Assembly: GCA_032358255.1 (NCBI GenBank)
Contig: JAULBX010009769.1
Coordinates: 1-64,000 of the forward strand
From: Heterotrichella gracilis
Taxonomy: Eukaryota > Sar > Xanthophyceae > Tribonematales > Xanthonemataceae
Direction: 5' to 3'
DNA: 64,000 nt
In this document: piece after piece, positions 6,706-63,653 of the stretch
Layout: every line of letters begins with the position of its first letter
Position numbering within the stretch: the stretch's first letter is position 1
Made by a program: the position numbers and the translations under genes
Notes under the pieces: model-generated
Told to the model about the DNA's origin: nothing
The model's input: only the letters and a program-made list of their open reading frames with translations
The model's database searches: none

Positions 6706-9700
6706 ATGTCTAAAATGAATGGGTTGCCGAAGGTGCCGCAGCTGCTGAGGCAATTCACAACAGCCCTTAGACGCTCCCCTCAGCTTTCAACACAGTCTCC
6801 CGGCAGCTTGGCACACCCCACATCATCCCTCAAATGGGAAGGGTTCAAATTGGCGTCCACCCTCTCGCCAGCATACAGCTCCTTCCCATGGGCACAAATG
6901 TTCAGCCGCGGGGTCACACATTTGGCCCAAAATGTATCCCATAGCACCCGCATGGTAGCATCTGGGAGCGCACAGCAGGCAGCAAAGCAGCTACCCACCA
7001 GCGGGTTACACATGCAGCGGGGCATGGGCACGTTCCTTCGGCGGATGTCGGGCCCCTTCGGCGCTGCAACCAGTCATGTCGCCGCATGCCGTCATGTCGC
7101 GGCGTCGTGTCATGCCGCCGCCGCCGCCGCCTGCGTCGCCGGCAGCCGTGCCGCGGCGGTGCGCGGCGCATGTCCGCATGTGGCGGCGCCGGCGGCGCGC
7201 CACCTGATGGCGTCATCATCCGGCGCCGCCCGGGGCGTGATGACGTCATCAGGATTGCGACGCGCGCCAGGGGTGCTGACGTCATCGCGCAACGCCGCGC
7301 CGCTTTTGCTGACGTCAGCACGCTTCACGGTGACATCAGCAAGGCAATCGGTGGCGCATTCTCACATACGGCGGGGGTTGAAGACAACTGCGGACGCACC
7401 CTCCCAGTGGGCTGCGTTTCGCAAGGCGCGCATCATCGCACCCCCCATAGGCTTCCTGGCAGGTACGTCACTTCATTGTGCTTCCCTACCATTACTGTAT
7501 GTATTAATCTAAGGGTCAAATGCTGTTCACTTGCCTCATCTTGAGGGCTGGCAGGTAATGATTTTTGCGGAAACAGAAAATGACATAAAGTCATATGACA
7601 ATTGCCTCATTTCAAATCTCTACATGGGTACTCACATTACAAATAAAGCAGTGTGTTTAACTAGGGAATTTTGGTATAAGGATGTGCAAATCGATGTTAT
7701 TTTGCTGCTTGCAGGCCTGTTTGGCAGCTTTGTGGGTGTGGGCGGTGGCGTGGTCATTGTGCCTGTCATTATCAACATGTGCAAGACAATACCCCAAAGG
7801 TGAGTGGGGGCTGGTTGGGAATGTGGAAAATTCAACAACATTTCTTGGTTGTGAATGTGAAGTGCCCTTCCCCCTATGTTACTTGTGTATAAATTGTAGT
7901 CAACGTCATGTCATCCTCAGGCCACAATACACGAGTCCGATCACTAGTACAATATATACCTGTTTTATTTTTTCTTTCCCCTTGCCCTTGGCAGGGTGGT
8001 ATCCGGCACATCCCTCGCAGCAGTGGTATCCACCGCCCTCGCCGCCACCCACACCTTCATAGGCGCAGGCCATGCAGACCTCACCGCAGCCCTGCTGGTG
8101 AGCTGCACAGCCATGGTGGCGGCGCCCCTGGGGGCCCGCCTGACCACCACCCTGGATTGCAGGAAATTGAGGCTGATTTTGGGGTATTGGCTGCTGCTGG
8201 TGGCGCCTTTGTTGCCGCTCAAGGTGAGGCTGGCCATAAATGGGCCAGATCCTAAACCTATATCATATAAACAAATCATTCTACAAGCATTGGGGGCCAA
8301 ACAGGGAGTTAAACTTCTATTTTGAAGATGTAGTAATTGTTGATTATACCATATCTTAGGCTGCAACCAGGGTACATGAAATTGTTCACTTTTCCCCCAG
8401 GCGTACACCCTGCCAGAGCAGGGGCACCCCAAATGAGCCAGCAAATCCCGATGACCTCCCCGTCACTCCCCCAGTGCTACCCACCCTGACCACCTCAGCA
8501 GTGGTGGCAGGGGGGGGGCAGGGGGCCGAGATATTACATCTGATATCAAGACCTACTGATGATTTCATGTAATAAATCCATTTGTTTAAAAAATGATTGA
8601 TCCCCTTCCCAGGCGTACATCTTTCAGAGCACGGAGAGCAGCGCTGACAGCCACGGCCATGACCTCCCCAGCACTCCCACAGTGCTACCCACCTTGACCA
8701 CATCTGCAGTGGTGGCAGGGGAGGAGCAGGGGGAAGGAGAGGGGATGGGGGGTTGGGAGCGCGTGCGCAAAACCCTAGTGATACCCTCCGTGGGCACTGG
8801 ACTTTTGCTCATGGCCACTGGTGCAGTGGCGGGGCTGGCGTCTGGCCTGCTGGGGATAGGTGCGAAAACCTAGGCATGGGCTATTGTTCAAACATACCAC
8901 GGACCTTGGAATCCCATGCGCATTTCTTCCACCCAACCCCACATCACACACCACACATACGCACCCAGACACCACCACCACCATCACCACCCCACCCTCC
9001 CATGCAGGCGGCGGCACCATCGCCACCCCCCTCATCGCCATCTTCACAGGCCTACCCCAAGCCACTGTGCTGGGTACCTCGTTGCTAGCCATGGTGCCGC
9101 CATCGGCAATCGCGCTGGCGCAGCACCACAGGTAAACCTGGATACCCTCCATCCCTATGTGCACCACAGGTGAAACCCTAAACCCTAAACCCTTAACCCT
9201 AAACCCTAAACCACAGGTAACCCTGGATACCCTCCATCCCAATGTGCACCACAGGTGAAACCGGATACCCAACATCCCTAGTTACACTACTCACCTGGAA
9301 TCCGACTCTGGCCAACCTGGATGGCGCATGGCGTCTGGGCCGGCGCTGGGCGGCTATCAATACAGTGAATGCTCATGCTGTGCAGTGTAAAATTTTCTCA
9401 TAATACAGAGATATTCTTCAATTCTACAAAGTGTAAACCCTTTTATCTTCTTCCAGGCTGGGCAACGTGGACTGGCGCATGGCTGCTGGGCTGGCGCTGG
9501 GCACCACCGCAGGGAGCCTACTGGGGAGCAACATAGCGGTGCAGGCGCCACCAGGTGAAGCATATTTTTACGGGGGATATCCATCAGACGATTACAACAG
9601 TCTTCATAGCAGGGCATGTTGCCTCCTTGTGGATGCATACACTGTGGCCGGCGTGGCGGTGCTGCGCATGCACTGCACCAGCATGCACTGCACTGGGCAC

Positions 9701-10054
9701 CTGCTCTGCCCCATGGTGTGCTTGCTGTACTGTACCACTGAACATGCAAAGGTTGCCAACCCCAACCCCTTCAAACATAAACCCTGGAACTGTGGGGTGC
9801 TTGAAACCCTAAACCCCAATCTTCTTACTGTAGACCCTGAAAGGGACTCCCCGGGTGCCTGCAGGTGTACTCAAGCTTGCCTTCACTGCTGACGTGCATT
9901 TTTGGGAAGGTGCATTAAAACCCTAAACCCTAATCCTCTTACCCTAGACCCTAAAAGGGACTCCCGGGTGCCTGCAGGTGTGCTTGAGCTTGCCTTCACC
10001 GCTGGGATGCTCTTGCTGGGGAGGGCCACGCTGCGGTCGGCAAGGAGAGCCTAG
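6706..10054 (+). CDS. TauE/SafE (TSUP) family transporter with long organelle leader
   Basis: Seven phase-consistent exons: 6706-7462, 7715-7799, 7995-8223, 8613-8859, 9008-9131, 9457-9554, 9978-10054; about 538 residues. The family moves sulfur-containing or other small organic anions across membranes. Both halves show the glycine-rich signature: GFLAGLFGSFVGVGGG and GAVAGLASGLLGIGGG. Helices follow in the usual order (VVSGTSLAAVVSTALAA, LTAALLVSCTAMVAAPLGA, TVLGTSLLAMVPPSAIALA, and a last helix LELAFTAGMLLLGRATL). The first 245 residues are Arg/Ala/Ser/His-rich with almost no acidic residues and end in RRGLKTTADAPSQ, like a mitochondrial or plastid leader but unusually long. The start is the first ATG in frame (MSKMNG), 116 bases after the previous stop. 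Exon copies lie in several introns. Confidence 0.9.
7238..7317 (+). promoter_or_regulatory. Three TGACGTCA palindromes inside the TSUP leader exon
   Basis: The octamer TGACGTCA, the classic bZIP/CRE site, occurs at 7241-7248, 7277-7284 and 7310-7317; the first extends to the 14-base palindrome TGATGACGTCATCA. They lie within coding sequence of the Ala/Ser/Arg-rich leader. They may be regulatory or only by-products of local repeat expansion, since weaker relatives (GCGTCATCA, GTGACATCAGC) flank them. Confidence 0.45.
8394..8525 (+). repeat. Decayed copy of TSUP exon 4 with acceptor
   Basis: Repeats the true acceptor and start of exon 4 (8605-8722): CCCAGGCGTACACCCTGCCAGAGC here, then an AATCCCGATGACCTCCCC block, a CCCACCCTGACCACCTCAGC block and CAGTGGTGGCAGGGG. 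Its frame reaches a TGA after ten codons, so splicing to this acceptor would truncate the transporter. Confidence 0.85.
9127..9263 (+). repeat. Tandem donor-side duplication split by a telomere-like island
   Basis: 9127-9177 starts at the last bases of TSUP exon 5 and its donor (CACAGGTAAACCTGGATACC). 9212-9262 is a nearly identical copy. Between them, at 9174-9212, is a pure island of CCCTAAA-type repeats. The island exactly fills the seam between the two copies. Confidence 0.9.
9295..9360 (+). repeat. Decayed copy of TSUP exon 6
   Basis: CCAACCTGGATGGCGCATGG at about 9312 followed by CGTCTGGGCCGGCGCTGGGC mirrors the true exon at 9460-9512 (GCAACGTGGACTGGCGCATG, then GCTGCTGGGCTGGCGCTGGGC). 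It lies before the true exon. Confidence 0.7.
9806..9900 (+). repeat. Copy of TSUP exon 7 with its acceptor
   Basis: A unit of about 90 bases runs from an AACCCTAAACC word through GGGACTCCCCGGGTGCCTGC, a CAG acceptor and CTTGCCTTCACTGCTG. It is repeated at 9917-10008 as the true terminal exon. The telomere-like word is part of the duplicated unit. Confidence 0.85.
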
Positions 10055-14833: not shown

Positions 14834-17800
14834 ATGAATCTCGGCCAGCAGCTACGGTCTTACTCAACCACAAAGCCAGCTTCCACCTTTCTCTTGATCG
14901 TGTTATCGTATACTGGAGCCATCGCTCTGTTCACAAAGGGCTTTTTGCTCACCCGTGTCGAGCTCCCATTGCACAGTGCCTGCTCGGATGTTCAAACTAC
15001 AGACAGCAACAGCTCGTGCTGGTTCCCCAGAGCTTACGAGAGGGCAGTCTTCATTGTTTTAGATGCTGCCAGGTTTGACTTCCTGGTGGATTGCGAGAGG
15101 GGAGAGAGTGCCAGTCAGGATGCCCTGGCTAGTCACTTGCCTGGCTTTGCCTCGCTGCTCCAATCTGCGGTGAGTGTGCTTGTTGATGGGTGGAGGCAGG
15201 CTTGTGAAGGTGGTGGCCAACGCCCAGTGGGTGGGCTTGCTAAGGCACGCTGGTGGCAGGGAATCACACCAGTGACAAGGCTTGTACTGGAACACACGGT
15301 GGAATCCCAAAGCAATATTTTAAGTTTACACTGCCTGACAAACCTCCTCACATTTCTCAAGCAGCTGTGCTTTACTCAACGCCATCGCAAGTGCACTCTA
15401 GCCACCCTTGCAACTATTGCATCAGTCAGGAATGTCAGCTTGCATGCTCTCCTTGCATTTGACTCGCCTTCGACTCGGTGGTTGACATGCCAGTGCTGGG
15501 TTCATCCTAGTGCTGTTTTCAACCTTGGTTTTTTTATTATTCTAGTCTCGTTTCACTCTGCAGGGCCCTGCCGCCAAGCTGATGCGCTTTGTGGCTGACC
15601 CACCCACCACCACCATGCAGCGACTCAAGGCACTGCTTACGGTAGGGTTTCGGAAGGGTTTTGGTAGGGTTTCGGTGGGGTTTGGCCATCTGGTAGGCTG
15701 CACTGAATGGCCAGTCCAGCAAGGCATAGTATGTAGGGGAAATACGAAGGGCCATAGCATTTAGTGGGAGACGGGCTAAAACATGGCCTGTGGTGAAAAA
15801 AGGTTTATTGGCGGTGATGGAGGAGTACAGTACGAACTTTGTGATGGGCTGTATTTAACTCCATCACGATAGATGGTTGGAAAGGACAGAAGTGGGTGTG
15901 AACCCATTACGCAAGACCCTCAGTCTCCCCACCGGGTTGGCAAAACCCCTAGAGTGATAAAAACCCTGACCAGCAGCCAATTCCAAACCCTTCCCTAGGG
16001 TAGCCTGCCCACGTTCATCGACATCGGCAGCAGCCTGGCAGCACCCACACTCACCGAAGACAACCTCCTATCCCAAGCCACAATCCCAGGGCCTGCCCAC
16101 CTCGTTCCACAATCTCAAACCCTAGAGCAAAACCCTAGCATGAGGGCACCCCAAACCCTACAGCAAAACCCTAACATGAGGACAACCCCAAAACCCTAAC
16201 CACCAGTCAATCCCAAACCCTTCCCTAGGGCAGCCTGCCCACGTTCATCGACATCGGCAGCAGCCTGGCAGCCCCCACACTCACCGAAGACAACCTCCTA
16301 TCCCAAGCCGCATCCCAGGGCCTGCCCATCGCCTTTGCTGGGGATGACACTTGGGTGGACCTGGTTGGTCCCCTGCTCAACATTTCCTTCCCCTTCCCTT
16401 CGCTTGAGGTGCACGACCTTCACACGGTGGATGACGGGGTGTGGCAGGTGAGCGGTGGGTACTGGTGGGGTGTGGGGTACTTAATGAACCGTGTGGGGTG
16501 GATGCAGTTTGAGTCAAGTCCCACTGAGCGGAAGGTGGGAAGCCTTTGTTATCCTACATCACAACCCCTACTCAGCAGACTGATCACTCTTTATACTCCC
16601 TTTTTACCTGCAGCATTTGCTCCCCCTAATCCGCCAACCCGCCACCTGGCGCATCCTCATTGGCCACTACCTGGGCATAGACCACGTGGGCCACATGTTC
16701 AGCGCCGACCCCCACCAGGAGCCAATGGCGGCCAAGCTGAGGCAGATGGATGGCCAGCTGGTGCAGGTGGGGATGCAGTGTGTGAAAGAATGGGATTCAA
16801 AATTCCAAGCTGGCTGTGGCTAAACAGGAGAAGAGGAGTGGGAAAGAGGATGTGTGTAGCGTGTAGGGTTTATAATTTATTGGCGTGTTCAGTGCCAATC
16901 CCCGCTAGCAGCCGATGGGTGCCAAGCTGTGGCAGATGGATGGCCAGCTGGTGCAGGTGGGGATGCATTGTGTAAAAGAAAGAAATATATTTTGAATTGA
17001 ATTGAGAATCAATCGATTGAAATTGAAAAGGGGAGGGAGAATGGGTGGAGAGTGTATGATGTAGGGGTAATGAATGTGTTTGGTGCCAACCCAAAGGCAG
17101 ATGGATGGCCAGCTGGTGCAGGTGGGTGCAGGGTTTAGGGATCAGGGTTTTGCTGGGTATGGGAGAGGGTGTAGGAGGCCAGGTTAGGGTCGATTTTAGG
17201 TGTTTGAGGGTTCAGTAGTGACTCCCATTGGATGCCAATGGCTGACCGCCAAGCTCAGGCAGATATGGCAGGATGCAAAGTGTTTTGAAATGATGAACGT
17301 AATCTACTACCACCATCCCCAATCCCCATTACCCTCCTTAGGTTGTTGAGGCGCTGGTGGCTGAGGCGCGCCAGGTGGCGGGCACACATCCACCCTGCTG
17401 CTGATGATGGGCGACCACGGCATGACACCTGGCGGGGACATTATTGCCGCACAACCCCCCCACACACACCACACCCCTTTGACGCCGCCAACACGTCTTC
17501 CACCATCATAAACCCCCTTTACCCTCTCTAGGTTGTGGAGGCGCTTGTTGCTGAGGCTGCGCCAGGTGGAGCGCACACATCCACCCTGCTGCTGGTGATG
17601 GGCGACCACGGCATGACACCTGGCGGGGACCACGGGGGGGGCACACCTGATGAAACAGACACCTTCATCGCGGCTGTGGACCCTAGGGTGTTGGCTGAGT
17701 GGCGGGCGAAGGAGGGAGGTGACAGGTGGGTGGAAGGGGGAGGGGCCACTGCAGTTTCACGTACGTCAAAGGTACATGGTAGGTGAAACTGCGAGTGGCA

Positions 17801-33900: not shown

Positions 33901-36900
33901 ATCTTATTACCCTTGATGGGGGAGAGTGGCGGTAGTGGTGCTGGTGAGCGGGAAATTTAGTGGTACAAGCGGGGAGGGAGGGGGCCCGACTGGCAGCACA
34001 GCTTGGTCACAGCAGTTAGCATATAGCCCTTTACCGAGTCGCTCACCTGGAGAGGGGGAGGTGGGTGAGGAGGGTGGCGGCGCTTCATGTGTGTGCATGT
34101 GAGTGGGGAGGGTGTCCCCGGCACGAAGTTGAAGGAAAGGAATGGATGGAGAGAAGGGTGAGAGTGCGAGCAGTCAGTAAAGAGATGGATGTGCCTGCAT
34201 TCCAGCCCCGGTGTAGCCAGGGTATCGGTGCTTGGTAAGCCACGCCGCAGTTCACAAGTCAAGGGCGGCGGTACCCCGTGGCCTATCCTAACAACACCCC
34301 TAGGAATGTAAAGTTTGTGCAGGGTACAATTACAATTAGCCCTATCCTTGAATTAATACCCTGTTGAGGGTCAACTGGAGGGTTTTTGCTTAGGGCAGTG
34401 CTTGGGGTTTCCCACCTGCTGCGTGTCCACCACCCCGCACAGCTTGTCCACCACCGCCTGTGCGCCCATCTCGGACAGGGTGCCATACTCCCCAAGAACC
34501 CACGCAATAACCTGCAGAAGGGGACATTGTTACATCCAATTAAATATTGTAATCCTAGACGATAAGCATTCTGGCAAGGTGTCGTATTTCCAAGCACCCG
34601 CCGCAGTTGCAGGCGTGGGTAGTGGCTGCTGTTCATCAAGTTGCAATTTCCCCCTCAATTTCCAAACATAATCCAATTTTGGTGGAGGTTCAATAACAGT
34701 CACGCGCACCTTGATGAGCACCTCCGGCAGCTGTGCTGAGTCCAGCAGGCGCAGGTATGACTCCACTGCCTGGCACCTCAGGTCGGCATCAGCCTGGTCA
34801 TCGTCCTCCCCCGCCCCCTCGGCGATGAGCCGCATGAGGTTGTGGGCAAGGGGCTCGGGGACCACCTCCCCACCAAGCTCAAACACCTGCAATAAAACAT
34901 CATTTCCTCACAACTTTATTCTTATCTTCTTTACGCCCCTTTTTGTCTGTGGTGAAGCAGGGTGGAATGACTTCACCAGTGGTTTTTTGGCGGCTGACAT
35001 TGCAATGTCCACTACATCATACGTCCAGCCCAAACCCCATGAGAAACTCTGCCTTGATGACCTCATCGGTGACTTTAGGGTTGGAGAATCATGGGTTAGG
35101 GTTTCAGGGTTCCACAGTAACCCATCACCTTGTCGATTGCTTATAGCAGCTACCAATTTACGCCCTCACCTTTGTCATAGTGTCAATGAACCACTGGGTG
35201 TCGGGCGCATATTTCTCAGCAAGCTCACTGACTCGCTGCACCACATCGGCTTTGATGACCTCATCGCTGGTGGCGCGAAGGTAGTCAACCATCTTGTCAA
35301 CAATCACCTGGGAAGCGTTTACATAGATTGATTAACCAAAAGTAACCTATAGTGCATGAACACACATGGAATTTGATGATGCCATGGAAAATTGCATGCA
35401 CCATGCCCGCTCTAAGGCGCGCGGGTAGGGAACCATTGTGCCAAATCTTGCCTGGGGAGGATGCGCATGGGTGGGGGGCTGAGCAAGGCATGGGGACTTG
35501 ATGCACCCTGCTGGGTGACACTTCTTTCAACATGCCATGCAAGTAGGAGCATCCAAGGGGGGAGCAACACCAGGCCCCACTATCCGCCACAGGTTCCTGA
35601 ACCCTACCCGGAACCCTACCTCCACATTGTTTGGCTTTGTCATCTTGCACAGCAGCTCCAGCGTCTTCTTCTTAAGGGTCACGTCGGGATCCTCTAGGCA
35701 GTCAATCACAGCCACCTGAATTTAAAAGTTGTGATCATCGTGATCATCATGTAGAATTGCATGTGTGCCATATGAGGGATGGTACACACTGTGCAAATGG
35801 AATACAGGATGATATCTTCAGGGTCACGTCGGGATCCTGTAGGCAGTCAATTACAGCCATTGTCCTGGGTTGCAAAGAACAACTGAGGTCATGATCACAG
35901 AAACCCACACACTGGTGAAAAACCCTACAGACCCGTAGCAAGGTCTAGCTGACAAGGCATGGTGCGCCCCATGCAAAGGGAAGAGAAGAGAAACCCCCTC
36001 GACAACCTAATCCAATAACGAAAAACAGAAACATGCCCTCCTCTGGACCCCACTCTCCACAACAGCATCCCCCCAGTCGCCCAAAACAACAAGATCAAAA
36101 TCTCCACCGGCGCCACCCAATTACCAATCCCCACACCAATCCCCACCTGGTGCTCCGCCGCATATGATGGGTGTGTGCGCACGATGCGTGCCAGCGCGTC
36201 TATGCCGCAGTACTTGAGGTTGTGCGAGCCTGCCTTCAGAAACCCGGAGATGGTTTCCGCAGCTGCGGGAATAGGGGGATTTGTGAGTAGGGGGAGGGTT
36301 ACTTAGTAAGGTACATGCAATCCAGCAATGCAGCCAGGTCATCAGTCAGTCTGGCACACGAGGGAGGGTCATTCCAGGGAAGCTGGGATGGGAATGAGGT
36401 TGCGCAGAGTTGAAGATTTCGGGTATTTTGCACGTGATTTATAGGACCGGCTTTGCATCATTACAAGATCATTACTTGACAGTCACATATTGTCCTCCTC
36501 TTATTCCCACTTTCTGGTAGCGGATTCCTGTCATCATCAATTCCTAGCCTATCCCCAACTCTAACCTGATGTGCGTGATGCATGATTTGCACGCACTTCA
36601 AACCTGCCTAACACCAGCAGATATCCCCAAACTCTGCAAAAACCTGGCCATGTTCTAAACCCCAGCCCCCGTCCCCACTCACCTGTCTGCAGCAGCGCTG
36701 GGCTCGGGTAGATGGCGGTGATGGTGCGCACGCACCCCCAAACCCTCAATTTGAGCCCTATCACCCCTCCCCACACCCAACCCCTACCCCCTCTTGCCTG
36801 TCTGCACCACCCCAATTCTTTCTTACTTACTTACATCCCTACTCTAACCACCATACACTCCCTCACCTGTCTGCAGCAGCGCGGGGCTCGGGTAGATGGC

Positions 36901-40623: not shown

Positions 40624-43600
40624 ATGGCGTTCACCTTTGGAGGTAAGAGGCCCTCCTTGACCTGCCCTCACCCCAACGCTGCATGCACAGCTCAGACGTG
40701 GCAGCCAGTGCTGTATACGCCTTGCAGCTGAGCACCGTTCCTGCTGGTAACGAAAAACCGGCCTGATTGGTCGTGGTTGACGGCCAAGGGGGGTGTGCAT
40801 GCAGGTGGCACAGGTGGCGCGTTTGGGGCGCCCTCTGGCGCGCCCTCTGCACCAGCTTTCGGTGAGTTCCCAGGCCCCTTATTCTGTCGCTACAAACTAG
40901 CGTTGAGAATCAAGAAACAGCGTCTTGGTGCATATGCATGCATATACGCTCAACAGAATGGGCAGCCATCAAATAGCTTAGAAGCCAGCACGGCAACTAG
41001 GAGTGTAAATCTACCATTCGGGAGTCATTTAACACCCTGATGCAACCAGGAGAATGCATATGCGCTCCACAGATGGTTACAACCTAGCGACACAGGGTCA
41101 ACAAAGAGGAGGCCACCCTGGAGTTATTGCGTTTTTGGAAACGCACCCATCCTTAGGGCAGCACAGGGACCACATGCTTGCACATGCACAAAGGTATTCC
41201 AACTCCAAACAGCCCACATGCCACACAACACGCACACACCCCTTCCTCACCCACCACCGCCAACACCACCCTCCAACCCTTGAACCCCCCGCTCCCCAGG
41301 CGGGTTTGGAGCCACCACCGCCCCCGCCTTTGGAACCACAGCCGCAGCCCCCACATTTGGCGCCCCGGCAGCCGCCCCCACATACGGCCAAGCCTCATCA
41401 GCCTTTGGCCTCAGCACCCCAACCACCTCCACAGCACCAGCCGCAGCCCCTGCACCCGCTGGCGGTGGGTTCAGCTTCGGCGCAGCAGCCCCTGCGCCCG
41501 CACCCGCAGGGGGTGGGTTCAGCTTTGGGGCGGCGAGTGGGGGGTCCCTGTTTGGAGGGGCTGCGCCCGCTGCCAGTGCTGCACCATCCATCTTTGGGGC
41601 GCCAGCTTCAGGTGAGTGGCGGGAAGCCTGAAACCCTGGATCCGGAATACCAGCTCTGCCTTTTGTGCTGTACCCCACCTATGGGTGCACAGCAGCATAA
41701 GTATATATGGTAAAAAAGCCCGACATCGCTCTTACGAACCAAAGGCAGAGCTCTTCCTCTGGTAAGCGAGAGCAACACGTCCCCTGAATGCAGAGTGTGG
41801 GACCAGACCGCACTGAACACCCACCCCCTGGCCCCCTGCAGGGCAGCTACCGATTTGGCGATTAGGGTTCGGGAAGGGAAAATAAATTTTTTAATTGATA
41901 ACCAGCAACTGCTAAAAATAAATTTAGCAGTTTCTAAACTTATTTTATCAAATAGAACTCCGCAAATGCTCTTGCAGGGGCTGCTACCGGCGGCGGGTTT
42001 GGTGGTTTTGCCGGGGTGGGCGCCACCACCACCCCCTCCTTCGCCCTTGCCCCCCCCGCCACCTCAGCACCAGCCGCAGCACCCACCTTCGGTCTGGCTG
42101 GTGAGTGCCCTCCCCTCCCCTCGTCTCCCCTCCTCACGTCATATCAACTCTGCCCCTAAACCCTGATTTTATCTTATAACTGTGATCCAATAAGGTGATG
42201 CAATTGTGATTAAAATGTGACCCAGTGGGTGTGGCTAATCGTGCCTGTTTGTTACAGTTACAATTTGTTGCAGGTATAGCCTCAGCTGGCCACACCCACT
42301 AGATCGCATGTTGGGTCACACTTGGTTGACGGGGATTTAAAATTGGCTGGTGGGGTTGCAATTCAGTGTTGCACTCCCTGGCAACCCACATGTTTCTCTT
42401 GTGTAATGTTTCACAACTAGGCGGCCCAACCTCCCTCCCGCGTCCCCCACCCCTCCCCCAACCACCTCCACCACCCCTCACCCCCTTGCAGCCACCGGCA
42501 GCGCCCCCTCCTTTAACCTAGCCGCCACCCCCACATCCGCCGCGTCCACCCCCGCATTCAGCTTTGCACCTGCACCGGTCGCCTCCGCCCCCGCGGCCTC
42601 TGGCGCGTTTGCCCTCAACCTCTCTGCACCGGCATCGGCGGCGCCAAGGTGAGTGCCAATCTAGGCACGGGGGTAGCAGTATCCATTTGTGCATTTGGAT
42701 TGCAATGCTTGAATGCCTAGCTATCCATGTGAGTTTAACCATGAAACCTTTGTTGATGGCATTTCCAGAAACTTGTTTAGCTTTTTTGGTAATAAATGTG
42801 GGGCCAATGTGGCTCCGGTAATTCACATATTGTTTAGCGAGCGGGGTGACTTTCTTAAGCGCCCCCAACAGTCTTGTGAGCCCGGGTTGGCTCCCTGAAT
42901 GTGATAGTCAAATAAATCTTGTAATCTTGTGACAACCCCAGGCAACCCAGGATGCATTGCACACACCCCCGTATATGCCAAGCTCTGCATCCACACACCA
43001 CACACCACACACCTCCTGACCCCACCCCCCACCCCACAGCGCGCCCGCATCCGGTGGGTTTTCCTTCGGCGCCCTCGCCCCCGCCGCATCCACAGCCCCC
43101 ACCACAACAGCCTTTGGCGCACCCACCACCACCACCACAGCCGCACCCACCTCCGCCCCCAGCTTCTCATTCGGGGGCGCAGCCACCACCACAACCACCA
43201 CCGCACCCCCCGCAGTGCCCCCACTCCCCACCCTCTCCTTCGCCACCGGGGCAGCCGCCACCGCCACCCCCACCCTGTCTTTTGCGGGTGGTCTGGGGGG
43301 GGCGGCGGGTACCAGCGCTGGTACTGGTGGGGGGTTCAGTTTAGCTGGTAAACTTCCTGTGGGGGGGAGCGCGCCGTCTTTCTCCTTCAGTACAGGGGCG
43401 GCCAGTGCGCCTGCTTCCGCGCCGGCAGCAGGTGCGCTTAGGGTTCAGGACTTAAAGTATGAAATGTAGGGTGTAGGGTTTCTCCTTCAGTACGGGGGCG
43501 GCCAGTGCGCCCGCATCGGCGCTGGCAGCAGGTGCGCTTAGGGTAGTATGTTATACAATGTATGCTAGTGTTTATTACAATATATATGTGCCTGTTGCGT

Positions 43601-46087
43601 TGCATTCCAGCCAATAATCCCCCTCTGAACTGCAATCTTCCCAGGGGTATGAGACAAGTATTATCTTATTACGGTACCCTTGATCTTTCCCATTCCCACA
43701 TCTCACACACGACATCACCAAGGGACCTTCAGACTGTCAATTTTTGCTTAATCTCAATCCCCCCTTGTGTCTCCCCAGGCTCAGCCCCTGCAACAATCTC
43801 CTTTGGAGCCCCACCAGCATCCACCACCACCACCACTCCAGCCACCTCCGCAGCACCAGCCGCCACCAGTGGGGCTCCACCCGCCACACCCACCCTGGCA
43901 CTGGCACTGCCATCCGCCAGCGCAGCCACCTCAGCGCCAGGTAGGTTTACCCTGCTTTAGGGTTTAGGGTTTAAGCCACATGCACCCACTTCTGCGCCAG
44001 GTAGGTTCCTCTGTGTGAAGTTACCCTTTTGCCGTTTAATGTTTAGCATTTGGGTCCCAAGCTGAAACGGGTGTGAAAAATTAACCAATCCAAATTATAG
44101 TACATGCCCTCACTCCTGCCCCCTGCACACCCCTTTATCCTTCCCACCCAATCCCTGCCATTCATCACCACCCAACTTTTGCCCCTCCTCTCACCCGTTC
44201 CCCTCCACCAAACCCAAACCCCTGGCATTTACCCTTCCCCCTCCACCCCACCGCAGCCGCCACCGCCGCCGCCGCCGCGCCAGTCACCGCGCCCTCCGAG
44301 ATCAAGGGGAAGAACGTGGATGAAATCATCACCGAGTGGAGCTCCGAGCTTGAGAAGCAGAGCCGCGCCTTTGTGAAGCACGCCTCCAACCTGGCTGACT
44401 GGGACAGGCAGATCCTGGCCAATCGGAATACCCTGCTGGAGCTGGAGGAAGACCTCAAGAAGGTGCGGGGGACACTGCTGCACCCTACTGAACCCTATTC
44501 TGCCCTCGGAACTGAGCAAGAAACAGTCGGGAATAAGGGTTGGGAAGTTAGGGTTTAGGGCACTGAGATTGAGAAGCAGGCCGTGCATTTGTGAAGCACG
44601 CATCCAACCTTGCTGACTGGGACAGGCAGATCCTGGCCAACCGAAACACCCTGCTGGAACTGGAAGAAGACCTCAAGAAGGTGGGTATTGTGTGCCTTTT
44701 GTAAGTGTATGTATGATGTCAAGGGTCTCTAAATTTGTCAGTATGGGGAAAAGTGAAGGTTGGGAAACAGGGAGGGTGGACTTCTCGTGTGGCCTTGTCT
44801 GCTGGACAGAAAACAAGCGGCTGTGCATGTTCAAGACCCTTGACCCGCCTGTCCTTGTCAACCGAAACCCTAGAATTGGACCCTAGACCCTGAACCTAGA
44901 CCCTCCCCGTGCAGATGGCCAGCAGCCAGGACGGTGTTGAGAAGCGGCTGTGCATGCTAGAGGCGCACCAGCGTGAGGTGCATGAGGCCCTGCTGGGCAT
45001 GGAGGGGGAGGCGAGGAGGATGTATATGGTGAGGCCAGAAACACCACCACACATGCACGCACCACCCCACTGCATGCGTACCCATGCGCACACCACCGTG
45101 CATAGTTTGTTAAATTCATACAAAGCGCTGCTTGGGATGGAGGGGGAGGCAAGGAGGATGTACATGGTGGGTCACAGATCTACACCCACCATGTGTGTAC
45201 ACAGACGCACATTGCCCGCACCTACACGCATGTCATTTCCAGAGTCTGTACTGTGCTAATGAAGTCTTGCGCAGTGATGGAGGAGCAGAGAAAAGGTAGC
45301 ATGACATGGGAGGAAAGCAGCCCATAAAGCAAACACTTCCTGGTTTTGTGTGAAATGAAATAAAAGGATGGGAACGATTTTGTAAAATAAAATCTTCATT
45401 CCCGTAGGAGGAGCGCGCGGTGATGGACGATGATGCAGTTGAGCGTGAGCGGCTGTATGACAAGGCTGAGGCGCTGTCATCGGCACTGGTCCGCATGGGA
45501 GCGCAGCTGCAGGCAAGTCAGTCAGCTAACGTGCAGATTGCATGCATTCGGGTAATGCAGCAAGATGAGCAACGTATCTCTCACAAGCTCGTTTTGTTAT
45601 TTTGTACAAGCGCCATTCTTATGTTCATCTGTTTCGGGGTACTGTCTGTCTCCTTTGTTACACGTTTCTGCATTCTTTCTGCTCTATCATGTATAGATTC
45701 TTCCTCCTTACACCCTCCTGCCGCAGGGCGTGGCCACGGTTGCATCTACGCACCTCCACCCGCATGGTCAAGATCCTCAAAACCTTGAATCATATCGAGG
45801 AGAGGAAAAAGCCTATCCTAAAAATCAAACAGAAAGAAAACATGTCTGTTTTTCTGCGTGTGCGGCGTACCCTTTCCATGGATATATCAGGTTATGATTT
45901 ACTTCTTCACGCACCCTGTCGCAGGGCGTGGTTGCGGACGTGAACGCGACTGCGTCCGCCTCTGCTGGCGACCCCTCCACCCCTATGGCCAAGATCGTGC
46001 GCATCCTCAACAACCAGCTGCACGCACTGACTCAGATCGATGCGCGCACAGCGCAGCTAGAGGGGGCGCTGGGGGGCGTGGTGGCAG
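40624..46087 (+). CDS. NUP62: Nucleoporin Nup62 / Nsp1
   Basis: FG nucleoporin of the central channel of the nuclear pore. Eleven exons in phase: 40624-40642, 40805-40861, 41300-41611, 41978-42100, 42492-42648, 43040-43431, 43779-43940, 44257-44462, 44915-45028, 45408-45512, 45925-46087. The start is MAFTFG. About 420 residues of Ala/Pro/Thr-rich FG repeats follow (GGFSFGAA, PTFGAP, PSIFGAP, PSFSFGGA, ISFGAPP). The conserved coiled coil starts at SEIKGKNVDEIITEWSSELE and runs through FVKHASNLADWDRQILANRN, LLELEEDLKK, HQREVHEALLGMEGEARRMY, RERLYDKAEALSS and KIVRILNNQLHALTQIDAR. The intron after 45512 begins GCAAGT, a GC-AG intron. The last exon after 46087 is unresolved; candidates begin at 46179 and 46277. 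Exon copies occur in several introns. Confidence 0.94.
42213..42325. repeat. Foldback repeat in a Nup62 intron
   Basis: TGTGACCCAGTGGGTGTGGC at about 42217-42236 is matched on the opposite strand by TGTGACCCAA, ten unrelated bases and TAGTGGGTGTGGCC (42289-42321). The pair could form a hairpin and resembles a small foldback element. No target duplication was identified. Confidence 0.6.
43475..43545 (+). repeat. Copy of Nup62 exon 6 end with donor
   Basis: TCTCCTTCAGTACGGGGGCG followed by GCCAGTGCGCCCGCATCGGC, GCTGGCAGCAGGTGCGCTTA repeats 43381-43440 with a handful of changes. AGGGTGTAGGGTTT, a telomere-like tract, lies at its left edge (43467-43480). Confidence 0.93.
44546..44690 (+). repeat. 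Copy of Nup62 coiled-coil exon end with donor
   Basis: From about 44565 to 44682 the sequence repeats 44347-44462 at roughly 90 percent identity, including GCTGACTGGGACAGGCAGAT and GAAGACCTCAAGAAGGTG. The frame is lost near the start of the copy. GTTAGGGTTTAGGG directly precedes it (44546-44559). Confidence 0.94.
45115..45175 (+). repeat. Copy of Nup62 exon 9 end with donor
   Basis: CTGCTTGGGATGGAGGGGGA followed by GGCAAGGAGGATGTACATGG and TGGGT mirrors the true exon end at 44991-45030. A weaker copy of the same exon's start (AAGCGGCTGTGCATG) lies upstream at 44815-44829. Confidence 0.9.
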
Positions 46088-50240: not shown

Positions 50241-53200
50241 TCACGAGGCATCTGTGCTCAGGGGCTCATACTTGATGGGCGCCATGCCGGGCCCGAGCAT
50301 GTAACTGCTGCCTGCACATTTGAGGGAAGGGGGCGGGGTCAGAAAAAGGGCCCCGTGCACATTTGAGGGGGGCAGGGCGCGGGGGCAGCAGCGCCGGGAC
50401 CAAACTGCGTGGCGCCGCATGTGCAAGACTGACAGCCCACTGGCATGGGTTGCTGGAAAGGCATATGATTCACCAACTGACCACCTACCCAGTCCCCATG
50501 ATCCAATGTGGTTTACGATCATCTTGACATGCCACCAATCTCCCGTGCACACCGCCCCCACCCCCACCACCCACCTGGCGGTCCCCCTGGGCCTCCATAG
50601 CACCCATTCGACTCCCCTCCTCCCCCTTCCCCCCTGGCGCCCACCCCCAAATATGACCCCCCAAGGGGGCCGTCCCCGAGGAAAGAATTGGGGAGGGACG
50701 CCATCTCATAGGTGCGAGGGTACCCCCCTCCATACATGTTGGGGTTGGGGCCCCCCATCGCCCCCCCTGGATGGGGGTGGGGAGGGTTGTTGTTCCCAAT
50801 GGGGATGCCATCCAGGGATATGAGGGGGTTTGGGGGGGTGGGGCCGGACGGGTAGTGGTGCGGTGGGGGGCCCGAGGAGAGGGGGCGGTGGCCTGGAGGG
50901 GGGGTGACCAGGGGGGTTACAATTTGACACTGGCAGTGGGTAGGGGCTGCCTGAATTGACATTGGTTGCGACAGCATATCTGTGAGTGGTAACAGTGATA
51001 GCTATCAATTGTTGGGGCTAAACCCTAAACCCTAAACCCTAAATAGCTGCGTGTATGCACTGCGTTGTGCATGTACTCCATACCTATGCAACACACATAG
51101 CTGGTGATTTGTCAGCATGTGTGTGTCGTTTGCCTATCACCTGCGCATGCTGCCTAGTCCACAACCCTAGCTCCAAGGTCACACTCCTCGGAAGGGTGTG
51201 GGGCGTGCATCTAAAACCCTAAATCCCCTGCCTAGGGCTGCGGCTGCTGCTGCGCGCAAGCTGACGCACTTGGCTCAAAACTCTAAACCCCAAACCCTTA
51301 TCTGCATGCACCTGCCCCCATCCCCTGCCTGAACGGCTGCGGCTGCTGTGCATTTGATGATGCTTGGCTCAAAACCCCAAACCCCAAACCCTAATCGCCA
51401 CGCACCTGCCCCCATCCCCTGCCTGAATGGCTGCTGCTGCTGCGTATCCCCCTCCGCCACCGCCACCACCGTGCATAGCATGATGGTGTCTGGTATGCAT
51501 GGGTAGGAGGAGACTACCCACTGCGCCTGCTGGAGGGGCGTCAAGATCTGCACAAGGGGGGGTAAAGGGGAGTCAAGATCTGTGCGGGAGGGGGAGGTCA
51601 AGGGTAAGAAAGACAAGGCCAGCTTGTTTTGAGGGGGGCTCAAGCTGTGGTGTCATTGTGCAGTTAACGCAGCTCTGAGGAGGAAGGTACCAGCCCTGGG
51701 TTGCACTTCAGAGCTCTCAAAGTAGGGAATTTATTTACAAATTTACTCGTTGGCAGGGACAGCGGAAACCCGTGAGGACTCACATGTCTCGAGGCGGTGA
51801 GCATCAACTCCAGCACCAGCGCCTGCTCCTCCCGCAGATTGGCACGCAGCGAGTCGATCCCCGTGCACGCCTTCACATACTGTATGCTGATCTCCTGGGC
51901 TCCCGGGCCCTCGGGGATGGCGGTCTGGGTAGGCGGGAGGGATGGGTAAGGGGACGCCATTTCAAGCAGCAATCAGACATTTAGCCTGATGGGCCACCCA
52001 GCACCCAAGCTCCGACATGCATGGGCAGCCTCCACGCTGCCCAACACCACAAAACCCTAGCGCAACCCTAGCCCACCTGCCCCGGCCACAACCCCCATCA
52101 CGCTGCACTCAGCGGCCAAGAACCACCCACACCTCATTCCCCGCAAGCAAGGCCCATGCACACACTCCACCCCACCATGCACCACGACTATTCCACACAC
52201 GCCATCTCACACCCCACCCCTCACCCGCTGCGCACCCACACATCCAGACCCCCCAATGCACCGGCATGCACCTCCACACCCTGCAAAACCCTAACTCAAA
52301 CCCTAGCCACTCACCGAGATGAACGAGCAGCACTCCCTCCGCCGCTCCAGTATGCGCGACAGGCGGGACATGAACAGGCGCCGGAGCTGGAGCAGCTGGG
52401 CTCGCTGGGTGGAGCCAAGGTCAAGGGCAGCCTGCGTGAGGGAATTGTGGAGGGTTTAGGGTTTTGGCGGCAGCATATGGAGCCACTGTGCTGTGTCCCC
52501 CACGCCCCACGCCTGCACGCAACCCTCACCAGCCAGGCCCAGTTTACGGTTGCCAGGGGACCACAAGGGTGCAATCCTCTCCCACCCCAGATTCGCCTCC
52601 ATGCCGTTAATGGTCCCCTCGTTCATTCTCCTGGCCGCCCTTGCGCAATCCTGCCACCACCCCATCACCACCACCATCATGCCACCCCCCCTCACCATCA
52701 TTACCACCACCACCACCACCACGCCCTCTACCGCACATCCTACCCAATCCCCACTCACCAGCAGCCTCTCCCAGCCCTGGTTGGTCTCAATGCCGCTGAT
52801 CGCCCCCTCGTCCTCCATCTTCTGGCAGCAGAAGCTGCGCACGCACAGCGGGTTGTACTGGCTGGTCACAATCATGAGCAGGCCCTGCAGTAGGGTGGGG
52901 GGTGTCAGGGGGGAGATAGTGTGTGTGTGTGGGTGGGGGGGGGGATAGCACACAGCGGGTTGTACTGGCTGGTCGCAACCATCAGAAGGCCCTGCAGTGG
53001 GGGAGAATGCGATCAGCGAGGATGGGACCAGGGGCAAGAGGCACGTGCACAGGTGGTTACACTGGCTGGTCCCTCTGCATAAGGTGGGACATGCTAGCTC
53101 CAGTGATCCAGCGTAGAGGTCCGGGTTCAGGTGTGTTTTGCCGTACCTGCGCAACCGGAGGTTTAGGGTTTAGGGTTTTCGTGCTCACCAGTTCCTGAAT

Positions 53201-58879: not shown

Positions 58880-61800
58880 ATGCTGAGGCGGCCGGTGGTT
58901 CAAAACCAGCCTGGTGGCCTGGTGGCTCGAGTGGGGCCCCAGTTGCAGCCTGTGCACTCCGCCCGTTTCATCCCAAGGAGGTTTCTGGGAAGGGCACAGC
59001 AGTGGCGGACGTATGCCGACAACCCCAACGGCTCTGCGCTAACTGAGGTACCGAAAGATGGCAGGACCGAGCTGGAAAGGAAGGAGGAAACCATCGTCGT
59101 TGTGCCTGCAACTGCACGGGCACAGCCAGTGGCACAGGTATTTTAACGTGATCTCTTGCCCAGGCTTCGTACAGTAATGCAATTGCTGCTGATCTGGGTC
59201 ACCAGGGGCTAAGTTCCATGTCTGCTTTTGCCTGCGGGCTTCTGGGATAGGGTTATTGGGCGCTATGTGTGAAACTATATGCATGCATGGTACCACCGGT
59301 GCTTTCCCTGCCAACGGCGTTGCTGTGTATGGGTGCAGCCACAGGTTGTGAAGACACCGCAGCAGAGCAGCAATGGTGGCCAGTCCGTGCCTCCCGAGGT
59401 TCAAAAAGCCAGGGCAACCCAAGATAAGGTGCAGGCGATGCGCTCCTTGCTCGAAAGTAAGTCGACGCCCCTCGGTGCAGTTTGGGCCACCATGCACAGG
59501 TTGTGACGCGTTGACTAGGCTCAGGCAGCAAGGCCTTTTGGGCAAGCATCGGTTTCGAGTAATAGATCGTTTGTTGTGGCTGAAACGAGACTTGTAGACT
59601 ACACATCTTGGCAAACGACCCACTTCATACCAGCTGTCCTGCAAAACGCAAATGGGGTGGTCCACCGGTTAGTCTAGTGCAGTGAATGAAGGGCTGAAAG
59701 TTGGATGGACGCCGTCGCTGCGTGCACCAGTTCCGTAGAACGGTTCGCATGGTGCAAAGCTGACGTCGCTGTTTGAATTCAACACTTCCTACCACCGACC
59801 CTACCACACATGCCGTGCCTGTCGATACCTTGGCAATCGCCACTGCGCGCATCCCACCCTTACCCGGCCCGGCCAGCGACTCTCTGCGCTCCTTCTGAAA
59901 CGGAGTGTGCTGAAAGTTGAGCTCTGGCTCTCATTTCCGATTGGCATGATCCCATGTTTTGACCACCATGCGTACAGCGCCATGGGAATATATTCACAGT
60001 TGGTAGATGCCCACTTTTTCCCTGCAAAACAGCAGCAGCATATAGCAGTTACGGGCATTCCTCTAGTGTGCGCCCACACCTACCCCTCACCCCATCTCCA
60101 CACCCACACCCCAACCCTTCTTCTCTTTTACCCTCCCCACTCACCTCCTGGACCCCGTCACCCACAGCCACCAGTGCTGAGTGCAGTTTAACCCATCAGG
60201 CTGGCCTAAGGCTGACCTGTGTGGCCTCAAGGCCAACAGATCATGTAGCCACCAGTGCCCACCCCGTTGTCATACCCATACCCACCCCACCCCCGTATAC
60301 CCCTCACACCTCCCCCCAACCCCCCACACACATGCGTTGCTCACAAGCACCCCGCGCCCCACTTTGCAGCCACAGTTGCTGAGCGGGACCGGTTCAAGGC
60401 GGAGCTGCGGGCTCTCAAGGCCACGAGAGCGTATGTAACCACCAGTTCCACCCCGTTTTTCATACCCATGCCCACCCCAACCCCCTTGCACCCCTCACAT
60501 ACCTCCCCTCCCCCTTTTTACCCTCCCCGCTCACCTCCCGGTCCCTTTCTCCCGCAGCCACCAGTGCGGAGCGGGACCGCTTCAAGGCGGAGCTGCGGGC
60601 TCTGAAGGCCAAGGACAGTGTGCGGCGCATGCGCGAGGTGGAGCGGGAGCTTGCGCTGTCGCGGCAGGAGACGGCAGAGGCAAACGCACGGGTGAGGGGG
60701 GTGTTGGTGGGGGTTGGGGGGGTAACGACGAACGCGCCGGTAGAGGGCGGTGTGTGTGGTGGTGGGTGGTGAAGGAGGGGTGCAAGGTCAAGGGCAAAAA
60801 CACTGTGGGGGCTTGCGCGAGGTGGAGCGGGAGCTTGCGCTGTCACGGCCGGTGACAGCAGAGGCAAACGCGCGGGTGAGGGGGTTAGGGTGGGGGTTTG
60901 GCAAGGGTTACATGCGCCGTTACAGGTGGTGTGTATGGATTTTGGTGGTTTTGGGTGGTGGGGGAGGGGTGCACGGGCAACGGCTGGGTAGTACTGTCGG
61001 GGGGGTGGATTGAAGCGGGAGGTTGTGGAGGCCACGGCATGGGTGAGGGGCGGGTGAGGGGTAGGGGGTGAGGCAGTGCTCAATGCAAGAGTGGGGGTGG
61101 GTGGGGAGGGGTGCGAGCAGGGGAAGGAAGTGCCCTTCTGAATCGCCTACACTTTGCTGCCCATGGTGACCAACAAATAATGCGCATTGGCGAGCGAGCG
61201 CCTCCCTAGAGACCGCTGTGCTGGATGCCAAACAGCGGCTGGGAGAGCTTGAAGCCACCTGTACCCTCCTGAACCCTAACCCTAACCCCAAACCCTAGCT
61301 ACATAAGGGAAGGCCACCATCCGCTCTGTGCCCTTACTGCTGTCACCAACACCCACTCCCTCCCCGTTTTTTCAGGCCAGGCGGGCGAACGAGTCCCTTG
61401 AGACTGCTGTGCTGGGTGCCATGCAGCGGCTGGAGGAGCGGGTGAGGGGGTCCCTGGAGGAGGAGGGGAAGCTGGACAAGAAGCTGCTGGAGGTGGGTTT
61501 ACAGGATTTATGAGACATAGGGTTTATGGTTTTTTACATGCATTGCAGCAGAGGCAAGTTTAGCAGTCAGTCTTGCACATGCAGCCCTTACTGGAGTTCC
61601 TGTTTTTAAAAAACTGTTCAACTTTTCAGGAGCAGCTGCGTTACGCCATCAGCATCGCCCAGCAGTCAGAGGCTGAGCTCACGAAAGTAGTACAATGTGA
61701 CAAGATATGGTCTTGCAACAAGAAATCAGTATAACATGACAACTAAACAAAGAACGATGCTGACCCTCTCAACTCGTGCAAATCTCTGCAATTAACACAC

Positions 61801-63653
61801 CATTCATGATTTTCAGGAGCAGCTGCGGTACGCCATCAGCGTCGCCCAGCAGTCAGAGGCTGAGGCGGTGGCTGCGGTGGCTGCGGCGGAGCAGCGCGCG
61901 GTGGGGGCTGCGGAGGAGGCCATGGCGGCTGTGGAGCTCAACACTGTTGCAACGGTGGAGCTGGCCAAGGTAAAATGACAAGAAACTGGATGATGAAACA
62001 GGAGAATGCATGGTAGTAAAATATTATACTACCTGGACATGGGTCAACAGAAGCACCCTAGGGTTTAGGGTGGCGGAGCCAGGTGGGTGGTGGGGGCTGC
62101 GGAGGAGGCCATGGCGGCTGTGGAGCTCGACACTGTTGCAACGGTGGAGCTGGCCAAGGTGTGGGAGGTGGTGGTGGGTGGCGGGGTGTGGGGGGGGTGG
62201 GGAGCATCGGGATGGTGGTGCTGGGAGTGATGGGCTCTGAGGATGGTGCAGTGCGTTTTTCCTTAAATCGTCCTGCCGAACCCGTTCCCTGCCACCAAAG
62301 CCCGGCGCCAGCCTGGCCGAAACAGCAGCAGCAGTGTCCGCCTGTGCATAACCCTGCACACACCCTTGCAGTACCAGGCCAGGCCCAGGCGGCAGCAGCG
62401 CTGTCCAGGAAGCTGCATCAGTACTTCACCCTACCCACCACATATCCAAAACCCTAACCCAAACCCTACCCGTTCCCCGCAGGTTAGCGCCAGCCAGGCC
62501 CAGGAGGCCGCGGCGCACTCCGCCACAGCCGCCAGCGCAGCCCTTGAGGAGCACAGGCAGGCGGTGCAGCTGGCGGCACAGGTGGGGGGGAGTAGGAGGC
62601 TGTTACTTCCTGCACAGCTGAAACAGTGCACAGCTGAAGTGCACACTGCACGCTGTGGGTTCTGCCGCCGCAGTTGCCAACAAACCTAGGCATGGGGTAG
62701 GAGGTGGCTGGGAGGGGCGGTAGGGGGCGATAGTGTGTGGATGGGGTTGCAGGTAGGCATGCGGGGGGCGACATTCTTTGAGCTGCACCCCTCCCCAACC
62801 ACTATTCCTCCACCCCATATTTAAAGGTCCTGTCCTCCGGCACTAACCCCCACACCCCACCACCTCGACTCGACTCATAAACACAAACCCCACCACCCCA
62901 CTCACACACACACCCCACCACCCCCCAGGTCCAATCGGCAGCCGACCTCGCCAACCGCAGGGCCCTGGCCAGCCACCGTCAGGCCACAGCCCTCGCCACT
63001 GAGGTTGAGGGGCTGAGGGAGGGGCTGCGGGCGGAGCAGGCGCGCGCGGTGGAGGCGGTGGCGCGGGCGGTGGCTGCGGAGGGGGAGGCCAGCGAAAAGA
63101 TCGGCAGGTGAGGCCCTAAACCCTAATACCCTAATACCCTAATACCCTAATACCCTAAACCCTAAGATTCGAAGCCCTAAAACCCTATACAGCTTGGTGG
63201 TACCACGTGGGGGCGGTGGCTGCAGAGGGGAGGCCAGGCCAGCAAAAAGGTCGGCAGGTGGGTGGTGGTGTGGTGGTGGGTGGTGGGTTGCAGCGGGGGG
63301 TTTGCATAGGGCTGTTTGTACCATGTGCACACCCCTCACTCTTAACGTACACCCTTGTGTAGGGCTTTTGTATTGTTTGTTTACTGCTCACATTGACACC
63401 TAACCTTGCGTAGCCTTGTGAAACACCCTAACCCCGACCCGTGTGTGGTTTTGTGGAACCCTACACGCTAACCCCAGCCTTTGTGTAGGCGTTTGAACCA
63501 CTATACCCTAAACCCCAAACCCAAACCTTTGTGCAGACTCGAGAAGGAGAGCAAATCCAAGCTGGTTGAGCTGGAGAAGGCCTACGAGGTGCTGAGGGCT
63601 GCAGAGCGGCAACGCGCGGAGACGGCAGAGGCGCTGGGGGCCAAGCACCTCAA
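58880..63653 (+). CDS. Plastid-type coiled-coil protein, 3'-partial
   Basis: Exons in phase: 58880-59137, 59345-59456, 60558-60691, 61376-61492, 61817-61969, 62483-62581, 62929-63107, 63537-63653. The start MLRRPVVQNQPGGLVARVGP opens an Arg-rich leader (RFIPRRFLGRAQQWRTYAD) typical of organelle import. Then come heptad-rich helices: KVQAMRSLLE, ERDRFKAELRALKAKDSVRR, EVERELALSRQETAEANAR, LETAVLGAMQRLEERV, EQLRYAISVAQQSEAEAVAA, QAQEAAAHSATAASAALEEH, ANRRALASHRQATALATEVE and LEKESKSKLVELEKAYEVLR. Composition is Ala/Glu/Arg-rich. Such N-terminal coiled coils occur in plastid structural proteins and in some starch synthases, but no catalytic domain is visible here. A possible next exon begins at 63832; otherwise the gene continues past the window. 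Nearly every intron carries exon copies. Confidence 0.8.
60165..60445 (+). repeat. Two copies of coiled-coil exon 3 start with acceptor
   Basis: True: CCCGCAGCCACCAGTGCGGA, then GCGGGACCGCTTCAAGGCGG (60551 on). A good copy is at 60366-60430 (TTGCAGCCACAGTTGCTGAG, CGGGACCGGTTCAAGGCGGA). A poor one is at 60165-60230 (CCACAGCCACCAGTGCTGAG). The decay increases with distance from the true exon. The spacers between them are also alike (CCCACCCC-, CACCTCC- and CCGCTCACCTCC-type blocks), giving a unit near 190 bases. Confidence 0.92.
60800..60885 (+). repeat. Copy of coiled-coil exon 3 end with donor
   Basis: GCGCGAGGTGGAGCGGGAGC, TTGCGCTGTCACGGCCGGTG, ACAGCAGAGGCAAACGCGCG and GGTGAGG repeat 60631-60697 with about six changes. 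Confidence 0.93.
61185..61260 (+). repeat. Copy of coiled-coil exon 4
   Basis: GCGAGCGAGCGCCTCCCTAG, AGACCGCTGTGCTGGATGCC and AAACAGCGGCTGGGAGAG mirror the true exon at 61386-61440. It lies before the true exon and is followed by CCCTAACCCTAACCCCAAAC (61262-61290). Confidence 0.85.
61625..61695 (+). repeat. Copy of coiled-coil exon 5 start with acceptor
   Basis: TTTTCAGGAGCAGCTGCGTT, ACGCCATCAGCATCGCCCAG and CAGTCAGAGGCTGAG repeat 61811-61863 almost exactly. The frame is still open across the copied part, so this is a recent duplicate that could serve as an alternative acceptor. Confidence 0.93.
62055..62170 (+). repeat. Copy of coiled-coil exon 5 end with donor
   Basis: From about 62085 to 62162 it matches 61895-61972 with very few changes (GGCTGTGGAGCTCGACACTG, GTTGCAACGGTGGAGCTGGC, CAAGGT). 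CTAGGGTTTAGGGTGG stands just before the copy (62057-62072). Confidence 0.94.
63108..63265 (+). repeat. CCCTAATA array and copy of coiled-coil exon 7 end
   Basis: Directly after the donor at 63107 lies a tandem CCCTAATA/CCCTAAA array (63113-63190). It is followed by a copy of the exon end at 63208-63262 (GGGGGCGGTGGCTGCAGAGG, GGAGGCCAGGCCAGCAAAAA, GGTCGGCAGGTG). Confidence 0.92.

Follow-up and report, generated by a model that had tools for sequence, protein, structure and literature searches.

In the genome of the xanthophycean alga Heterotrichella gracilis, two copies of the same exon border lie on either side of a short run of telomere-like repeat, an arrangement that raises the question of whether the doubling of the border and the arrival of the repeat represent one event or two. 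The locus lies within a gene of the TauE/SafE (TSUP) type, identified by Pfam (TauE, E 1.8e-22) on manually joined exons, and a sequence-only reading that preceded this analysis had proposed a single event. The window, that is, the whole analysed stretch of 64,000 nucleotides (assembly GCA_032358255.1, contig JAULBX010009769.1, positions 1 to 64,000), holds the following features at this seam:

9127..9177, plus strand: left-hand copy of the donor region that is doubled in the TauE/SafE (TSUP) gene, identical to 9212-9262 at 49 of 51 bases
9173..9212, plus strand: CCCTAAA-type island of 40 bases with one imperfect unit, its ends overlapping the copies by a few bases
9212..9262, plus strand: right copy of the duplicated donor region, recognised by its identity to 9127-9177

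The two copies are near-identical, as had been claimed, and the distance from copy to island is zero on both sides. The island had been described as a pure repeat of 38 bases; it is of the CCCTAAA type, but the strict seam at 9178-9211 measures 34 bases, the telomere-like run at 9173-9212 measures 40, and one unit is imperfect (CCCTTAA). Exact filling of the seam, as asserted in that reading, holds at 9127 but not at the other places, where either the spacer is longer or the telomere words lie within the unit. The unit itself, previously taken as the exon 5 donor region, does carry the donor, but only about five of its bases are exonic and the remainder lies on the intron side, a division that we read from the sequence. 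A few bases appear to be common to copy and island at some seams, for example at 9173-9212. A third, weaker copy of the donor unit, with 80% identity, is located at 9246-9290. The intron of the TauE gene also appears, by eye, to repeat the beginning of the next exon in degenerate form (9308-9352 and 9457-9520).

TTTAGGG is very likely the true telomere repeat of this genome (68.5 Mb in 903 contigs), because CCCTAAA arrays are found at contig starts or presumed ends. The 45 exact CCCTAAA 49-mers are all confined to 11 contigs, of which six carry them in the first 200 bases in the plus sense and the remaining five in the minus sense, at places presumed to be the opposite contig ends. A telomeric 21-mer has 901 matches in the genome (overlaps counted), many of them internal, and the islands thus consist of the organism's own telomere repeat at internal sites, the defining property of interstitial telomeric sequences (ITSs). 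A TERT domain (contig C626) and a Ku domain are both encoded in the genome. Chlorophyll a/b-binding proteins account for 43 exon matches, and the organism is therefore taken to be photosynthetic.

An island between copies had been claimed at six further places in the window, four of which are real (43467, 44546, 62057 and 63113), whereas 5879 is weak and 18290 lies at chance level; two cases with telomere-like words inside the duplicated unit, 9806-10008 and 51205-51430, are likewise real duplications. The corresponding features, together with two others, are:

9796..10024, plus strand: acceptor and exon start, doubled as 9796-9910 and 9909-10024 (83%), with a telomere word in each unit
15960..16335, plus strand: acceptor and exon start in two copies (93%), with degenerate CCCTA words in the spacer
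43381..43544, plus strand: duplicated border, 43381-43444 and 43481-43544, with TAGGGTGTAGGGTT in the spacer
44341..44683, plus strand: end and donor of a Nup62/Nsp1-type exon in two copies, 44341-44465 against 44560-44683 (90%)
51223..51447, plus strand: duplication with an offset of 94-97 bases and telomere-like words inside the unit
61606..61864, plus strand: acceptor and exon start in two copies (88%), the spacer lacking a telomeric 7-mer, a comparison case of the same class
61885..62160, plus strand: exon end and donor in two copies, 61885-61971 against 62072-62160 (93%), the exon recognised by eye
63065..63260, plus strand: exon end and donor in two copies, 63065-63110 against 63211-63260 (84%)

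At the four real further places, the island leaves part of the seam unfilled. The spacer of 94 bases at 44341..44683 terminates in TTAGGGTTTAGG directly before the second copy, that of 100 bases at 61885..62160 terminates in TAGGGTTTAGGGT before its second copy, and that of about 100 bases at 63065..63260 holds a CCCTAA(TA) array at 63114-63187, while the units 43381-43444 and 43481-43544 themselves carry TTAGGG words. The Nsp1-type exon is supported by an Nsp1_C match on 44259-44462 (E 2.2e-13), and by eye the sequence after the second copies near 44 kb and 62 kb looks intronic and has a donor of its own. The pair at 15960..16335 is of the same class as the named seams and was absent from the earlier reading. 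Flank-to-flank local scores, compared with random window positions of the same gap and with telomere words unmasked, were 47 at 9178 (matched by 45 of 1423 positions), 54 at 43467 (23 of 1437), 60 at 44546 (21 of 1428), 62057 reaching 63 (13 of 1434) and 63113 reaching 34 (60 of 1426); the weak place at 5879 scored 26 (132 of 1438), and 18290, with a score of 13 matched by 440 of 1430 positions, shows no duplication above chance. That 1-4% of random positions equal the scores of the good seams is attributed to the window being rich in duplications.

The association was compared with chance in a sample of 254 kb, comprising the window and 19 stretches of 10 kb (L009-L028, with L014, which consists of N, left out), from which 55 survey islands of at least 12 bases were taken, and in 27 longer islands collected separately (7 + 20 loci). 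Islands distributed independently of duplication breakpoints, the outcome named beforehand as contradicting the proposal, were not what was found. At a score of 12, abutting repeats were present at 20 of the 82 islands (13 of 55 survey and 7 of 27 separate islands), whereas random positions had them in 133 of 4000 cases and other microsatellites in 13 of 185; the remaining 62 of 82 islands lack an abutting repeat at this score. Further controls for the 55 survey islands gave 76 of 2500 random noncoding positions, under a noncoding rule that only 23 of the 55 islands themselves satisfy, and 59 of 1566 for local shifts of 0.4-2 kb. In an unanchored test with telomere words masked in the flanks, a flank-to-flank repeat score of at least 28 was reached by 15 of 55 survey islands and 198 of 4000 random positions. 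The 27 separate islands alone were significant in the unanchored test at scores of 18 (9/27) and 20 (8/27), and not significant at 24 (4/27, p = 0.08) or 28 (3/27, p = 0.15). An early shift test, which had counted 28 of 75 islands in spacers against 2.95 expected, was set aside, as islands within units had been miscounted as spacer. Clean seams outside the window are present at L048 (27 bp), L042 (26), L003 (31), L023 (27) and L030 (56, repeated), and direct repeats flank the insert on both sides, the form by which a staggered break is recognised. Border-plus-telomere units have also grown into small tandem arrays of at least three copies at L030 (182-432), L043 (about 200-480) and L047.

Gapped direct duplications occur about every 5 kb (48 pairs in the window and L009-L028 without L014), this set being drawn from BLAST pair lists, which miss the pair 43381/43481. 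Among the 72 pairs before filtering, the offsets cluster near 100-140 and 180-220 bases. A telomeric 7-mer is contained in 20 of the 48 spacers, against 6.4 +/- 2.3 expected from random segments (maximum 14 in 500 draws) and 10.7 +/- 2.8 from noncoding segments (maximum 21 in 300 draws, above the observed 20), so that the excess of telomeric words in spacers is smaller when measured against noncoding segments. Telomeric density per kb is 30.2 in spacers, 9.0 in copies and 4.5 outside. An exact telomeric 7-mer is absent from 28 of the 48 spacers, and telomere DNA is therefore not required for duplication. The most similar listed pair, 36678-36734 and 36862-36918, is identical at 56 of 57 bases and was read as a minus-strand donor; its spacer contains one AAACCCT word and no island.

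The duplications are biased towards exons and their borders. The coding score exceeded the random-segment median in 22 of 23 pairs at 84% identity or above, a figure biased upward by use of the higher-scoring copy of each pair, and few of the closest pairs look noncoding. Of the 48 pairs, 13 have an AGGT donor immediately within the 3' edge; the rate over the genome would give 4.3 and that inside the units 7.0. Other recognisable duplicated exons include a bromodomain in L030 and a PC-esterase below the Pfam cut-off. Random breaks do not account for the exon bias and the donor-near edges; gene loss would purge exon-internal events, yet it leaves the scarcity of purely intronic ones unaccounted for.

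The copies diverge by 2 to 25% in a graded manner. A frame could be assigned to 32 pairs but not to 34 others; in 20 of the 32 a frameshift separates the copies, and the 348 substitutions are distributed over codon positions 1/2/3 as 100/99/149, in frames from a crude codon table of which some are probably wrong, diluting any third-position signal. It follows from the frameshifts and this spread that one copy is usually free to decay, and a general role of second copies as functional alternative exons was rejected on these same counts. The second Nsp1 copy (44560-44683) is the exception to this pattern, with differences mainly at the third codon position (2/0/10) and one frameshift; though intronic in look, it is possibly an alternative exon, to judge from its substitutions. 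The regions near 44 kb and 62 kb, spacers included, each occur at one place in the genome, in a search that skips very common words. A mobile element or introner as the source of the spacers was rejected on this result, the many similar insert copies that characterise introners not being found for these two regions.

The explanation that we consider rather probable is that, when a double-strand break was repaired, one edge was doubled and telomeric DNA was incorporated as filler. The break would have been staggered, or one end would have been extended by re-copying, and sealing by end joining would then have doubled some 25-150 bases beside the break and trapped additional sequence in the seam. 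Telomeric repeats may be a frequent component of this additional sequence and would have arrived in the same event, whether synthesised by telomerase or captured as a fragment. Where the doubled piece extends across a splice site, one copy would keep the site and the gene would survive, and the other copy, with the filler, would join the intron and decay. The ancestral state predicted is an empty site that gained island and second copy together. Fill-in of staggered breaks, or end re-copying with end joining, yields the observed form, and similar duplications are described in the cited passages of PMC8355091 and PMC2671141. The earlier claim that duplication and insertion are one event thus stands as the most economical reading of a single island between copies; insertion of the island at a later time, between two copies already joined, is a possible but less economical history.

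The route by which the telomeric DNA may have entered bears on a more specific proposal, that a broken 3' end receives a TTTAGGG tail from telomerase and that this tail, by re-annealing, primes copying of the border for a second time, which we regard as possible but doubtful. Telomerase acting on an abutting 3' end predicts G-rich runs beside the left copy and C-rich runs beside the right. Ten islands fit this prediction and 18 do not (p = 0.18), among 28 of 31 rows, three without a clear side being omitted and some seams counting as two rows, and simple addition to the abutting end was rejected on this count. The opposite geometry, in which a telomeric end re-primes copying, fits 18 of the 28 sided islands and speaks for the proposal, but the result is not significant and several seams were counted twice. 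The encoded TERT domain also speaks for it, as does the register: of 75 G-strand 3' edges, 53 fall inside the T run, where 3/7 would be expected (p = 1e-6), compared with 26 of 70 for 5' edges. The survey (29/39) and the separate loci (24/36) agree in this respect, with one entry counted per similar flank because tandem arrays such as L047 inflate the numbers; T follows GGGTTT in 15 of 27 cases on this basis and in 20 of 32 before it. Such a 3'-edge register is expected from the end of a telomerase template and hints at it, but variation in T-run length or decay could produce the same register, and survey islands of at least 16 bases alone gave 9 of 14 (p = 0.09). Nor was telomerase-RNA-like filler recognised among the flank words, the top words being telomeric or near-telomeric and the next reaching only 5 of 94, and readthrough of the telomerase RNA was dropped for want of a candidate word. 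The priming of re-copying by telomerase or telomeric DNA, also part of the earlier claim, is thus suggested by register and left unproved by orientation. A wider role of telomerase in this lineage as a break-repair enzyme within genes, in which ends broken close to a splice site would receive a tail that primes re-copying of the border, and introns would grow stepwise through such telomere-sealed doublings, is unlikely.

Three other accounts place the islands or the copies outside such a repair event. Telomere-like words might be intron features, such as splicing or promoter-type boxes, with the duplications merely nearby; CCCTAA contains CTAA, which we take to be branch-point-like, and several islands lie, by eye, near an acceptor-like AG. 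Abutting repeats, however, are present at 24% of the survey islands, compared with 3-4% of noncoding or shifted positions and 7% of other microsatellites, and both orientations occur in genes read on the plus strand (C-rich at 9173 and 63114, G-rich at 44548 and 62059), which makes this account improbable. An assembly artefact, arising where overlaps went unmerged or haplotypes were set next to each other, could be suspected in a draft of 903 contigs, but it is hardly credible given the graded divergence between copies and the single genome place of both tested regions. Alternatively, the islands may have arisen earlier by another route and, being fragile, later broken and led to duplication of their flanks. 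ITSs reportedly break easily and favour rearrangement (PMC11626172), and the unit-plus-island arrays at L030, L043 and L047 indicate that islands do get re-duplicated. This sequence of events is nevertheless unlikely: plain duplication predicts two islands, whereas 9173, L048, L042 and L003 have one between the copies and none at the outer sides, which is why the repair of a break with telomeric filler as one event is favoured.

Four known systems come closest to this arrangement. In the passages cited from PMC2246262 and PMC7215372, short mammalian ITSs are described as inserted at double-strand breaks, with changes at the break site that include target duplications, random filler and in-register bases. 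Target duplications are given there for 6 of the 130 loci in rodents, 4 of the 25 in primates and 3 of the 66 in the horse, two further horse loci combining deletion, addition and duplication. The islands described here resemble these ITSs in being short internal telomeric runs with target duplication; they differ in that 20 of 82 abut repeats, often exon borders, and in being read from one genome, whereas duplications are a minority in those accounts and empty sites are available. Vertebrate duplications by capture of nearby DNA, as summarised in the abstract of PMC2671141, reach up to 619 bp, are closely linked, bear hallmarks of synthesis-dependent strand annealing and include exons and intron splice sites; that abstract makes no mention of telomeric filler, and the present cases are short-distance direct repeats around a spacer. 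According to passages of PMC8355091, fill-in of complementary 3' overhangs by CST-Pol alpha, which also fills in telomere ends, followed by end joining leaves the overhang doubled; those experiments used Cas9 nickases in cell lines, and the passages do not mention telomere inserts. New introns in Daphnia, as presented in the parts cited of PMC4202315, are ascribed to staggered breaks and consist of intragenic inserts accompanied by direct repeats; the exon-shared repeats there are 4-12 bp, the word stem "telomer-" does not occur in the text covered, and in H. gracilis it is existing introns that look lengthened. A search by title and start of abstract, covering few subscription papers and extending to no preprints, returned no paper that links exon-border duplication to interstitial telomeric repeats in either algae or plants.

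Insertion of telomere repeats and short duplication are each known as outcomes of repair, and in the mammals studied only a minority of loci show the two together. Because this genome holds hundreds of internal matches to the telomere repeat, and about one quarter of the sampled islands lie in seams, a comparison of strains could test where the telomeric filler comes from and how it relates to the growth of introns, in an organism far from mammals.
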